Made by a program: the position numbers and the translations under genes
Notes under the pieces: generated by a model
Told to the model about the DNA's origin: nothing
Seen by the model: the letters and a program-made list of their open reading frames with translations, nothing else
The model's database searches: none
Shown here: piece by piece, positions 33,675 to 38,059 of the stretch
Layout: every line of letters begins with the position of its first letter
How positions within the stretch are numbered: the stretch's first letter is position 1
Source of the DNA: Bacillus sp. AFS055030
GTDB taxonomy: Bacteria > Bacillota > Bacilli > Bacillales > Bacillaceae_G
DNA length: 52,825 nt
Reading direction: 5' to 3'
Assembly (NCBI RefSeq): GCF_002574545.1
Contig: NZ_NUGT01000022.1
Coordinates: forward strand, 1 to 52,825

Positions 33675-36149
33675 ATGACGAAACTACAAAGAGGATCTTC
33701 TAATTCTTCAGCAAGCTTGGTCCCTACGAATGGATTTCAATCAGTATTTCGGCAATCTTCTAAATCAATTAAATCCAAATTAGAGCGAGCATTCTTTGAC
33801 TTTGGGCTACTAATCTTTTTAACGGGATTTTTATTAGGACGAGCGTTGATACTATCTCATATACTCCCGTTTGTATTACCGTTTTTTGCCTCAGTTTATA
33901 TGATGAAGCGCGAGCGAACAGGAATAGCCTTTGTTGCTCTTATGATCGGTTCATTAACTGTGTCAGTTGAAACGGTTAGTTATGCATTCGCCACAATTAT
34001 CCTATTTTTTATCCTTAATATATTCTTCGCTAGAGTTAAGAGACATTATATAGGTCTTGTACCTTTTCAAGTTTTTTTATCCGTATTTATTAGTCACCTA
34101 TTAATTGCATATGCTTTTCAACAAGAAGTTCTGATGTATGATGTTTTGATGGCTTCAGTTGAAGCAGGGTTGAGTTTTATTTTAACGATGATCTTTTTCC
34201 AAAGTGTACCTTTACTTGCGGTTCCTAAAAGAAAACAGCTTTTAGGTGTTGAAGAAATCGTATGTTTAGTTATTCTTTTAGCTTCGGTTGTGACGGGGAC
34301 AACTGATTGGTATATTCAAGATTTATCTATTCAGCATATCGTTACTAGATATATTGTCTTGCTATTTGCCTTTGTAGCGGGTGGAACGGTCGGTTGTACA
34401 GTAGGAGTTGTAACGGGTCTTATACTAAGTCTAGCCAGTGTTTCAAGTCTATATCAAATGAGTCTATTAGCATTCTCTGGCCTACTTGGTGGCCTTCTTA
34501 AAGAAGGAAAAAGATTAGGTGCGGCAGCCGGACTATTAATAGGGACATGCCTAATCAGCTTTTATGCTGAGAAACAGTCAGATATCATTTTTTCAATCAT
34601 TGAATCTGTGATTGCGATTGTCTTATTCTTAATTACCCCATCATTCCTACTAAAACAATTGGCTAAACTAGTACCGGGAACAGAAGAACACTCTACAGAT
34701 CAACAACAATACTTGCGTAAAATCAGAGATTTGACAGCTAATCGAATTACTCAATTTTCAAACGTGTTTGAAGCTTTATCTGCAAGTTTTTCACAGCCTA
34801 GTCAGTATGCACAAATTGAAGACGAATTAACTGATGAAGAACTGTTCATTTGTAGTATTTCAAACAAGTGCTGTAATAGTTGTATGAAAAAGGACCATTG
34901 CTGGTCAAACAACGGAGACCGAACATATCAATACATGGAAAATATGATGCATTTAGTTGAAAAGGATCAGCTCATTAAAAATGGCCAATTTATGAGAGAG
35001 TGGGAAAAATATTGCCAACGTTCTTCAAAAATGGCAGATTTGATGAAGCAAGAGGTTTTCTACTTCCGTGCAAATCAAAGACTTAAAAAACAAGTGCAAG
35101 AAAGTAGAAGATTAGTGGCAGAGCAATTGCGCGGGGTTTCAAAAGTTATGGTCGATTTTGCAAAAGAAATTCAACGAGAAAAAGAAAACCATCAATTACA
35201 GGAAGATCAAATCTTACAGGCTTTATTAAACTTTGGAATTGACGTTAGCCAAGTAGAAATTTATAACTTAGAGCAAGGTAATATTGATATAGATATATTA
35301 ATACCGTTTGAAAACGAGTATGGTGAATGCCAAAAGTTAATCGCGCCGATTCTATCAGATATTTTAAAAGAGACAATTGTTGTATTAAAAGAAGAGGCAG
35401 CTACAATACCAAATGGAGGTAATTACTTAGTTACTTTTGGATCAGATAAAGCCTTTGTTATTGAAACCGGGGTTGCAACTGCAGCTAAAGGTGGAGGCTT
35501 TATTTCAGGAGATGCATTTAAAATAATGGATGTAGGAGCAGGAAAGCATGCTATTGCAATTAGTGATGGAATGGGAAATGGAGAGCGAGCACATATTGAA
35601 AGTAATGAGACACTAAAACTACTTCAAAAAATATTAAACTCAGGTATTGAAGAAACAGTCGCTATTAAATCGATTAACTCGATTCTATCTTTACGTACTA
35701 CTGAGGAAGTGTTTGCTACATTGGATTTAGCAATGGTTGATTTACACGATGCTTCAGCAAAGTTCTTAAAAATTGGTTCGTCGCCAAGTTTTGTGAAACG
35801 AGGCAAGCAAGTTATTAAGATTGAAGGGAGTAATTTGCCAATCGGGATTATTGATGAATTTGATGTAGAAGTAGTAAGTGAGCAATTAAAAGCTGGAGAC
35901 TTATTAATTATGATGAGTGATGGTATTTTTGAAGGACCAAAACATGTTGAAAATTACGAAATGTGGATGAAACGTAAAATAAGTGAATTTGAAACAGATG
36001 ATCCACAATCAGTAGCAGAGCTGTTACTGGAGGAAGTAATTCGTTCGAATACAGGTGATATTAATGATGATATGACGGTCGTGGTTGCGGTTGTTAAACG
36101 AAACTTGCCAGAATGGTCGTCTATCTCATCATATAGTGCGATGGCATAG
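33675..36149 (+). CDS. spoIIE: Stage II sporulation protein E (SpoIIE phosphatase)
   Basis: 824 residues (827 in B. subtilis). About ten membrane segments in residues 40-330, a central FtsZ-interaction/oligomerisation region (about 330-590) with a Cys-rich patch SNKCCNSCMKKDHC, and a C-terminal PP2C-type phosphatase (about 590-815) with AISDGMGNGERA, MMSDGIFEGP and DDMTVVVAV holding the metal aspartates. It dephosphorylates SpoIIAA-P to release sigma-F at the polar septum. The start is ATG 33675 after GATGAGGTGG. Confidence 0.97.
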   Translation: MTKLQRGSSNSSASLVPTNGFQSVFRQSSKSIKSKLERAFFDFGLLIFLTGFLLGRALILSHILPFVLPFFASVYMMKRERTGIAFVALMIGSLTVSVETVSYAFATIILFFILNIFFARVKRHYIGLVPFQVFLSVFISHLLIAYAFQQEVLMYDVLMASVEAGLSFILTMIFFQSVPLLAVPKRKQLLGVEEIVCLVILLASVVTGTTDWYIQDLSIQHIVTRYIVLLFAFVAGGTVGCTVGVVTGLILSLASVSSLYQMSLLAFSGLLGGLLKEGKRLGAAAGLLIGTCLISFYAEKQSDIIFSIIESVIAIVLFLITPSFLLKQLAKLVPGTEEHSTDQQQYLRKIRDLTANRITQFSNVFEALSASFSQPSQYAQIEDELTDEELFICSISNKCCNSCMKKDHCWSNNGDRTYQYMENMMHLVEKDQLIKNGQFMREWEKYCQRSSKMADLMKQEVFYFRANQRLKKQVQESRRLVAEQLRGVSKVMVDFAKEIQREKENHQLQEDQILQALLNFGIDVSQVEIYNLEQGNIDIDILIPFENEYGECQKLIAPILSDILKETIVVLKEEAATIPNGGNYLVTFGSDKAFVIETGVATAAKGGGFISGDAFKIMDVGAGKHAIAISDGMGNGERAHIESNETLKLLQKILNSGIEETVAIKSINSILSLRTTEEVFATLDLAMVDLHDASAKFLKIGSSPSFVKRGKQVIKIEGSNLPIGIIDEFDVEVVSEQLKAGDLLIMMSDGIFEGPKHVENYEMWMKRKISEFETDDPQSVAELLLEEVIRSNTGDINDDMTVVVAVVKRNLPEWSSISSYSAMA

Positions 36150-36168
36150 TAAAATAAAATAAATAAAG

Positions 36169-36198
36169 GTTTATCCCCTCCCGTAATTGGACAAAATG
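36169..36198 (+). promoter_or_regulatory. Sigma-F promoter of yabS
   Basis: -35 GTTTA (36169-36173), exactly 15 nt, -10 GGACAAAATG (36189-36198), which fits GGNRANANTR at all specified positions but one. The -10 lies in the loop of the hairpin at 36173-36223, so a transcript starting near 36205 would lack the left arm. Confidence 0.65.
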
Positions 36199-36223
36199 GT
36201 AACAACTTTTACGCGGAGGGGAT
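36173..36223 (+). terminator. spoIIE terminator hairpin that includes the yabS ribosome-binding site
   Basis: ATCCCCTCC (36173-36181) pairs with GGAGGGGAT (36215-36223), extended by CGTAA (36182-36186) with TTACG (36209-36213) across one bulged C; loop of 22 nt, followed by TTTCT. The right arm is the yabS ribosome-binding site. Confidence 0.75.
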
Positions 36224-36228
36224 TTTCT

Positions 36229-36963
36229 ATGTATAAAGGAAAGTTAAAACAAATTCTACTAATAACTGATGGATATTCTAACCATGGTGAAGATCCGTTA
36301 GCTGTTTCAAGCCTGGCACAAGAATATGGTATTACTGTAAATGTAATTGGAATATTAGATGAAAATGTACAAAGTGGCGACGGTTTAAAGGAAATCGAGG
36401 AGATTGCTAGAGCAGGTGGGGGAATTAGCCAAGTCGTTTATACAAAGCAACTTTCTCAAACAGTCCAAATGGTTACTAGAAAAGCGATGACACAAACAAT
36501 TCAAGGATTTGTTAATAAAGAATTAAAGCAAATTTTAGGCAATAGCAATTCGATTGAATCACTCCCTCCTTCAAAGCGAGAAGAGGTATATGAGGTTGTA
36601 GAGGACATCGGTGAAACTGTAGGGTTAGAAGTTATTATTTTAGTAGATACGAGTGCTAGTATGAAAGACAAGCTAGAAACTGTTAAGGAATCATTATTTG
36701 ATTTACAAATTAGTTTAAACTCAAGAACAGGAGAAAATGCCTACTCATTATTCATATTTCCTGGGAAACACGATGATGTAGACAAATTATTAGATTGGAC
36801 ACCTAAATTAGAAAAACTAAATACAATTTTTCCTAAGTTAACGATGGGTGGTATGACACCAACTGGTCCTGCTTTACGTGAGGCTTTAAACTATTTTAAT
36901 GAACAAAACTACAATAGAGGTATTAATGGTGATGATGAACAATCAATTGAATGGGCAGATTAA
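36229..36963 (+). CDS. yabS: YabS, von Willebrand factor A-domain protein
   Basis: 244 residues (245 in B. subtilis). Two halves: residues 1-95 (LKQILLITDGYSNHGEDPLA) and a vWA domain from about 140 with a MIDAS-type DTSAS motif near 146, plus GGMTPTGPALREAL. The function is not established; it is a sporulation-period partner of the kinase YabT. The start was set to ATG 36229 after GGAGGGG; the longer frame from 36187 begins inside the hairpin loop. yabT overlaps its end by 32 nt. Confidence 0.9.
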   Translation: MYKGKLKQILLITDGYSNHGEDPLAVSSLAQEYGITVNVIGILDENVQSGDGLKEIEEIARAGGGISQVVYTKQLSQTVQMVTRKAMTQTIQGFVNKELKQILGNSNSIESLPPSKREEVYEVVEDIGETVGLEVIILVDTSASMKDKLETVKESLFDLQISLNSRTGENAYSLFIFPGKHDDVDKLLDWTPKLEKLNTIFPKLTMGGMTPTGPALREALNYFNEQNYNRGINGDDEQSIEWAD

Positions 36964-38059
36964 TTTAGCGCCTGGGACTCACATTACTGGAAAGTGGAAT
37001 AAAAACAAATACGAAATTAAGAGTTTACTTGGAAATGGAGCAAATGGAACAGTTTATCTAGCTTCTGGAAAAACTGGAGATGTTGCTATTAAACTAAGTA
37101 AAGATTCTACTAATATCACGAATGAAGTAAATGTTTTAAAAAAAATCACACAGGTCCAGGATTCATTCCTTGGGCCTTCTTTTATCGATGTAGATGACTA
37201 TATAAATCCAGGTACAAATGAATGCTACTATTACTATGTTATGGAATACGTAAATGGTGTAAGTTTACCAAAATTTATTGAAAGAAACGGAATGGAATGG
37301 AGTAGTATTTTTATCATACAAGTTTTATCATTGTTAGATAAATTGCACCATAAGGGCTATATTTTTGGAGATTTAAAAACAGACAATTTACTAGTTACGA
37401 AAGAGCCGAATAAAATCCAGTGGATCGATTTTGGAGGGGTTACTCAAATTGGCCGTGCTGTTAAAGAGTTTACGGAGTTCTTTGATCGTGGCTACTGGGG
37501 CTTAGGTTCTAGAAAAGCAGAAGTTTCCTATGACTTATTTGCTGTTACGATGATTTTTATCCACTTGCATTGTAAAAAGCAATTTTTAAAAAATGGACTA
37601 GGTATAAAACAATTGGAACAAGTAATTAGTCAAACGCAAACCCTTATTCCATATAAAGAGTTTCTAATGAAAGGTTTAAAAGGTGAGTATGTTAGTGCAA
37701 ATGCCATGAAACAGGCTCTATTAATGTATGAGCAATTGATAAATGCTACAAAAAAGAAGAAGAGTAAAAAGGTTCAAACTACTACAGCACAAACAAATTC
37801 AATGAATCAAACAAGGCAATCAAAAAAGCAAAATCAGACAGCTAATCAAACATCACAATCAAACAAACATAGTCAGCCAGCAAATCAATCTAGAAATTCA
37901 ACTAGTCAGAATCAAAAATCTAATCAATCGACACAGACAAGATCAAGGAACAATGTCCAAGTAAAGCAAAAGAAGAAAAGGATTCATTGGTTCGAAACAT
38001 CGACCATTCTCATATTAATGGGCTTGGCTTATGCATTATATTTTTATTATCAAATGTAA
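36932..38059 (+). CDS. yabT: Forespore Ser/Thr protein kinase YabT
   Basis: 375 residues if ATG 36932 is used (AGAGG 11 nt upstream; GTG 36929 and ATG 36926 are alternatives). Hanks-type kinase: LGNGANGTVYLA (about 29-40), VAIK lysine, FGDLKTDN catalytic loop and DFGG. A long Gln/Asn/Ser/Lys-rich linker (about 275-345) precedes one C-terminal membrane segment (about 353-372). In B. subtilis YabT is septum-localised, activated by DNA and phosphorylates RecA. Overlaps yabS, so translation is probably coupled. Confidence 0.9.
   Translation: MMNNQLNGQINLAPGTHITGKWNKNKYEIKSLLGNGANGTVYLASGKTGDVAIKLSKDSTNITNEVNVLKKITQVQDSFLGPSFIDVDDYINPGTNECYYYYVMEYVNGVSLPKFIERNGMEWSSIFIIQVLSLLDKLHHKGYIFGDLKTDNLLVTKEPNKIQWIDFGGVTQIGRAVKEFTEFFDRGYWGLGSRKAEVSYDLFAVTMIFIHLHCKKQFLKNGLGIKQLEQVISQTQTLIPYKEFLMKGLKGEYVSANAMKQALLMYEQLINATKKKKSKKVQTTTAQTNSMNQTRQSKKQNQTANQTSQSNKHSQPANQSRNSTSQNQKSNQSTQTRSRNNVQVKQKKKRIHWFETSTILILMGLAYALYFYYQM

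Follow-up and report, generated by a model that had tools for sequence, protein, structure and literature searches.

Long early transcripts of bacteriophage T4 gene e (lysozyme), soc, 49 and I-TevI hide the start site of translation, and the late-promoter RNAs of gene e and I-TevI are made without the 5′ strand, with a 100-fold effect stated for gene e (available passages of PMC3014915 and PMC2988022). In Bacillus subtilis, a large hairpin has been proposed to block the translation of sigG (spoIIIG) from RNA reading through from spoIIGA-sigE, and this hairpin is missing from the transcripts of sigG's own promoter (available passages of PMC5942855).

Here, we describe a locus, the spoIIE–yabS junction, that would work like the kind of system known from T4 gene e and sigG. 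Three of five defining features of this kind were found at yabS: a predicted helix over the Shine-Dalgarno (SD) sequence or start codon, an own transcript predicted to lack the upstream arm, and compensating change between the two arms. The remaining two are the existence of read-through RNA, which is stated in print for B. subtilis, and poor translation of the long RNA beside good translation of the short one. As at yabS, the long transcripts in T4 hide the start, and the own-promoter RNA (e, I-TevI) lacks the upstream strand; the T4 leaders differ in belonging to a phage and its late sigma gp55, and common descent was neither sought nor is it expected. In our reading of the sequences, sigG shares with yabS a left arm placed in the promoter spacer and −10 element and a right arm on the SD. 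It is nevertheless another gene behind another operon, its promoter spacer is mostly 14 nt instead of 15 nt and, unlike yabS, its own transcript carries a second, small SD hairpin (available passages of PMC5942855). The novelty lies in the gene itself, in covariation seen throughout the order, and in a promoter-spacer arm shared by both forespore cases, yabS and sigG; our search of titles, abstract openings and passages, which covered few subscription papers, found no description of a yabS or yabT hairpin.

Results

Architecture of the spoIIE–yabS junction

The window analyzed is a stretch of 52,825 nucleotides from a Gottfriedia genome, whose YabS shares 99% identity with the G. luciferensis protein. 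On its forward strand, spoIIE, the putative source of read-through transcripts, occupies positions 33675–36149 (NCBIfam TIGR02865, 816.5 bits, cut-off 490.8) and is followed by yabS (36229–36963, ATG at 36229–36231), which encodes a VWA-domain protein of 244 aa (Pfam PF00092, E 1.7e-12), and by yabT (36926–38059), which encodes a Ser/Thr kinase called PrkT in NCBIfam (NF058632, 402 bits, cut-off 280, match given as 36932–38056). yabT begins inside the end of yabS (36926–36963), with its likely start among the in-frame ATGs at 36926, 36932 and 36935.

The sigma-F promoter of yabS, recognized by sequence and by a promoter matrix, consists of the −35 element GTTTA (36169–36173), a 15-nt spacer (36174–36188) and the −10 element GGACAAAATG (36189–36198). 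The original prediction had named this promoter and placed its −10 in the loop of a hairpin, both of which hold, and its description of the hairpin is correct to the base: the left arm ATCCCCTCCCGTAA (36173–36186), which follows from folds and covariation, forms 14 pairs with the right arm TTACGCGGAGGGGAT (36209–36223), which follows from folds, leaving one bulged C (36214) and a 22-nt loop. The left arm is made of the final base of the −35 element and most of the promoter spacer, and the right arm contains the yabS SD GGAGGGG (36215–36221), as had been claimed. A sigma-F transcript predicted from the promoter position to start near 36205, about 7 nt past the −10 element, would have a leader of about 24 nt and would be without the left arm. 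With one arm inside the promoter and the other over the SD, the start site would be hidden in read-through RNA and exposed in sigma-F RNA, a predicted behavior for which the placement of the arms bears out the earlier proposal.

The segment 36160–36240 folds with −24.1 kcal/mol (z −3.0; equalled by 2 of 200 shuffles), and among the inverted repeats of 7 nt or longer, the 9-bp core of the hairpin is the sole one listed for 36100–36300. In the long RNA, the SD is predicted to pair with the upstream arm at P 0.9999. When the cost of opening the start region is computed with and without the upstream stretch, the difference for yabS amounts to 14.8 kcal/mol, a value reached by 0 of the 47 other open reading frames of the window taken as genes (next 10.4, median 0.24). 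Comparison of 35800–36500 with Rfam gave three matches up to E 10, all to snoRNA families and far under the gathering score; a known Rfam cis-regulator was thus rejected as the identity of this element, no family reaching its gathering score in that interval.

The junction across the order

Of the 397 genomes that sample the order, 366 yielded a YabS. From 317 loci at the start, three that are not yabS junctions (L193, L208, L209) and six whose sequence stretch gave no spoIIE match (L055, L101, L103, L293, L297, L316) were excluded. Statistics were drawn from 231 of the remaining 308 loci, namely the adjacent spoIIE–yabS junctions with family labels, which represent 45 families; the other 77 named loci, left uncounted, largely repeat the same groups. 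Of these 231 junctions, 217 are distinct in both arms. The sigma-F promoter matrix matches every one of the 231; the spacer measures 15 nt in 230, and all 231 scores lie above the 95th percentile of shuffles, the training set being in both cases also the test set. Several members of family f11, such as L030 and L118, have a spoIIE–yabS gap of 512–556 nt and keep both promoter and hairpin. Intergenic length and hairpin strength show no link (Spearman 0.09, p 0.19; at family level 0.18, p 0.23).

Termination at the junction

The original prediction had also taken the hairpin for the spoIIE terminator, a claim that could not be confirmed. A role as intrinsic terminator of the spoIIE transcript, with the SD overlap as simple thrift, would fit the window, where a G+C-rich stem between two genes, as found in intrinsic terminators between operons, is followed by ATTTTCTA, that is, 5 T of 8. 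The yabS hairpin differs from such terminators in its arm on the start site, in its loop of 22 nt where a terminator has a short one, and in its tail, which varies within the genus. Across the order, only 10 of 191 junctions with clear arms, the window's included, have a U-tract after the right arm. A terminator pattern scan called none here, the 22-nt loop falling outside the loop lengths of 3–8 that it admits.

It is worth noting how the arms behave where the pairing has moved. In f17 (L165), TTTTTTTATTCGT pairs with ACGAATGAAAAAA over the AUG; in f11, CGTTTCGTCC pairs with GGACGAAACG; and in f20 (L144), the left arm CGTCCATCC sits in the −10 element and pairs with GGATGGACG. These examples engage the stretch between SD and start codon or the start codon itself, no junction in the three families has 5 T of 8 behind the arm, and, judged from the sequences, the promoter arm tracks the start site when the start site shifts. 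A separate terminator was detected upstream of the promoter in 17 of 217 junctions (under looser criteria, 45 of 217 have a T-run in the interval from spoIIE to the −35 element). Where it is detected, the hairpin is weaker (−12.9 versus −17.0, p 0.0017) and the opening-cost difference gives p 0.056, for rows that are not independent, 6 of the 17 coming from one family. A hairpin that exists to terminate spoIIE is thus improbable, and termination as the main function was rejected because the U-tract is not conserved; termination may contribute in Gottfriedia. The property conserved across junctions is the hiding of the start site, not termination.

Predicted accessibility of the start site

Across the junctions, opening the stretch from SD to AUG is predicted to cost a median of 12.2 kcal/mol when the RNA reads through and 4.2 when it is begun by sigma-F. 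For 202 of 217 junctions, and for 43 of 45 family medians, these two costs lie more than 2 kcal/mol apart; the difference is 2 kcal/mol or less in 15 of 217 junctions, and the effect is absent in families f2 and f37. Because a longer RNA always folds more, foreign and shuffled arms were used as controls. The mean difference is 7.61 kcal/mol with cognate arms, 3.85 with foreign arms and 2.24 with shuffled arms; the cognate arm is above the foreign-arm mean in 39 of 45 families (best 5% in 15) and above the shuffled-arm mean in 40 of 45 (best 5% in 31). At P > 0.5, pairing of the promoter arm with either the SD or the AUG is predicted for 176 of 217 junctions. In f23 (L278, L281, L188), the promoter region apparently forms a fold of its own (GCGCC with GGCG) instead of pairing with the SD; 0 of these 3 are sequestered and their opening cost is still raised.

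The position of the two arms also bears on a role in mRNA decay or processing, in which the hairpin would be an RNase III site or a protection of the spoIIE 3′ end and the hiding of the SD a side effect. Stems between operon genes often act in this way. Here, however, the right arm tracks the start site, with a peak at −13 to −8 and the AUG itself paired at P > 0.5 in 48 of 217 junctions. The left arm, for its part, lies mostly in the spacer and −10 element and stays upstream of the predicted sigma-F start, so that the gene's own promoter is placed for the production of RNA without the arm; decay would not require this. We therefore regard a decay or processing element as very improbable.

Covariation of promoter arm and start region

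The original prediction had proposed covariation in relatives as its own check, and we looked for it across the order, with a positive outcome. Each promoter (−35 to −1) of the 217 distinct junctions was combined with each start region (−22 to +12), and the duplex energy of every combination was calculated. Own pairs have a mean of −16.64 kcal/mol versus −13.37 for between-family pairs. With one representative per family, 0 of 20,000 permutations reach the observed mean (z −8.2), which is the compensating change expected of read-through sequestration; 200 redraws of the family representatives gave z −5.9 to −11.4, and z is −8.3 with the window's own family left out. The family mean z is below 0 in 37 of 45 families, below −1 in 22, and 0 or above in 8. 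Per junction, the effect is moderate: at the median, the own arm is equalled or beaten by 15% of foreign left arms, and in 57 of 217 it ranks within the best 5%. That pyrimidine-rich promoter spacers match purine-rich SDs merely by chance, without function, is hardly credible, for although foreign arms pair fairly well too (mean −13.4 kcal/mol), cognate arms do better in a permutation test that keeps the pyrimidine/purine bias, and the spoVAA start region behind sigF yields only z −1.7 in the same analysis (1,073 of 20,000 permutations).

When the left window is slid along the junction, the signal is strongest on the −35 element and spacer (z −6.3 to −8.0), falls to about −3 one step upstream, and elsewhere lies mostly between −2 and +2. 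In three draws of 45 representatives, left windows at −64 relative to the −35 element (z −1.5, −3.8, −3.4) and at −24 (−0.1, −2.2, −3.6) are exceptions that retain some signal. When the right window is moved instead, the signal is already there at −30 (z −5.3 to −5.9), is strongest at −22 to −2 of the start (−7.4 to −8.4) and is gone inside the gene. Perfect Watson–Crick helices of at least 8 pairs occur in 63 of 217 own combinations versus 7.2% of 3,849 foreign ones, and, when G–U pairs are allowed, in 149 of 217 versus 50%; the longest perfect helix is a less sharp measure than duplex energy.

Individual junctions display the matched changes directly, for example CGTTCCCC/GGGGAACG in L115, CCTTTCATTCC/GGAATGAAAGG in L020 and CTTCCATTCC/GGAATGGAAG in L017. 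Within Gottfriedia (13 rows, 8 distinct), 92.9% of cells pair, and G–C, G–U and A–U all occur at the pair of columns 15–44; taken alone, this genus gives weak covariation (35 of 500 shuffles). The putative junction lock appears to be kept, with changing yet matching letters, in most sampled families of the order.

The junction in B. subtilis

The B. subtilis-group loci (L318–L347) stand outside the 231. Ten of their junctions were examined and two dropped for the wrong strand (L319, L325); in all 8 readable ones the SD is in the stem, and the opening cost is 7.5–13.3 versus 4.1–6.5. The presumed B. subtilis 168 (L318, G434) has GTATA-aatcaaatttcttct-GGCGAAGATG and an 11-bp stem onto the SD, so that the putative lock is directly testable there.

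In this species, spoIIE and yabST are stated to be transcribed together (available passages of PMC5857382, citing Buescher 2012). According to the available passages of PMC3708118, yabT is SigF-dependent, its mRNA peaks at about 3 h, the YabT protein is undetected before T2, and mRNA and protein profiles agree; because of this agreement, there may be little read-through that needs silencing.

Other forespore genes

As a positive control, sigG (L348–L392; 45 genomes of 45 families) gave z −5.5 and an opening-cost difference above 2 kcal/mol in 42 of 45; the effect is small in the window's own genome (2.3). For spoVAA, 40 of the 45 genomes were used, the gene was located in 33, and one without a −10 match was set aside, leaving 32: 15 of these have an opening-cost difference above 2 (median of the set 1.8), and a T-run lies upstream in 32 of 32 under the loose rule. 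With its z of −1.7, spoVAA is unsupported as a third member. A genome-wide scan with the sigma-F promoter pattern returned 6 matches versus 7 in the reversed control, and the pattern is thus not selective.

One further locus (L437; G000 contig C28:67644-67673, minus strand, plus about 100 nt downstream) has a sigma-F-like promoter, GTATA-15-GGTCACAATG, whose spacer and −10 element pair with the region around the GTG start of a gene for a zinc-ribbon-like protein of 62 aa. The fold has −30.6 kcal/mol (z −4.3, 0 of 200 shuffles), and the protein has no NCBIfam or Pfam match.

Discussion

Based on these comparisons and predicted folds, we propose that the spacer of the yabS sigma-F promoter doubles as an anti-Shine-Dalgarno sequence. 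RNA reading through from spoIIE would carry the left arm, pair it with the ribosome-binding site of yabS (or, in some lineages, with the start codon), and leave yabS untranslated. Sigma-F RNA made in the forespore would start downstream of the left arm and allow yabS to be translated. YabS, and YabT by way of the overlapping reading frames, would thereby be confined to the forespore, although most sampled species have no clear terminator between spoIIE and yabS. In our judgment, it is highly probable that read-through RNA is under a translational lock which sigma-F transcripts bypass, and a role in insulation against read-through is well supported by the comparison of junctions.

A wider rule may tentatively be drawn, to which we give somewhat less than an even chance. 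spoIIE and spoIIG are stage II operons under Spo0A control. Forespore genes that lie behind such operons without a terminator (spoIIE followed by yabS, spoIIG followed by sigG) would write an anti-SD into the sigma-F spacer, making promoter and lock one element; no lock was detected where a terminator separates the genes (sigF followed by spoVA). The gene at L437 may be an unrelated third case in this genome that follows the same anti-SD-spacer rule.

Compartment-specific expression during sporulation is thought of mainly as transcriptional. By family median, a translational lock that is part of the promoter is predicted in 43 of 45 families, and it is also predicted in the presumed B. subtilis 168, before yabS and the gene for YabT/PrkT, a DNA-activated kinase, and it could be tested with few base changes. 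If true, it would offer an explanation of how spoIIE can share a transcript with yabS-yabT and the wrong cell still make neither YabS nor YabT.
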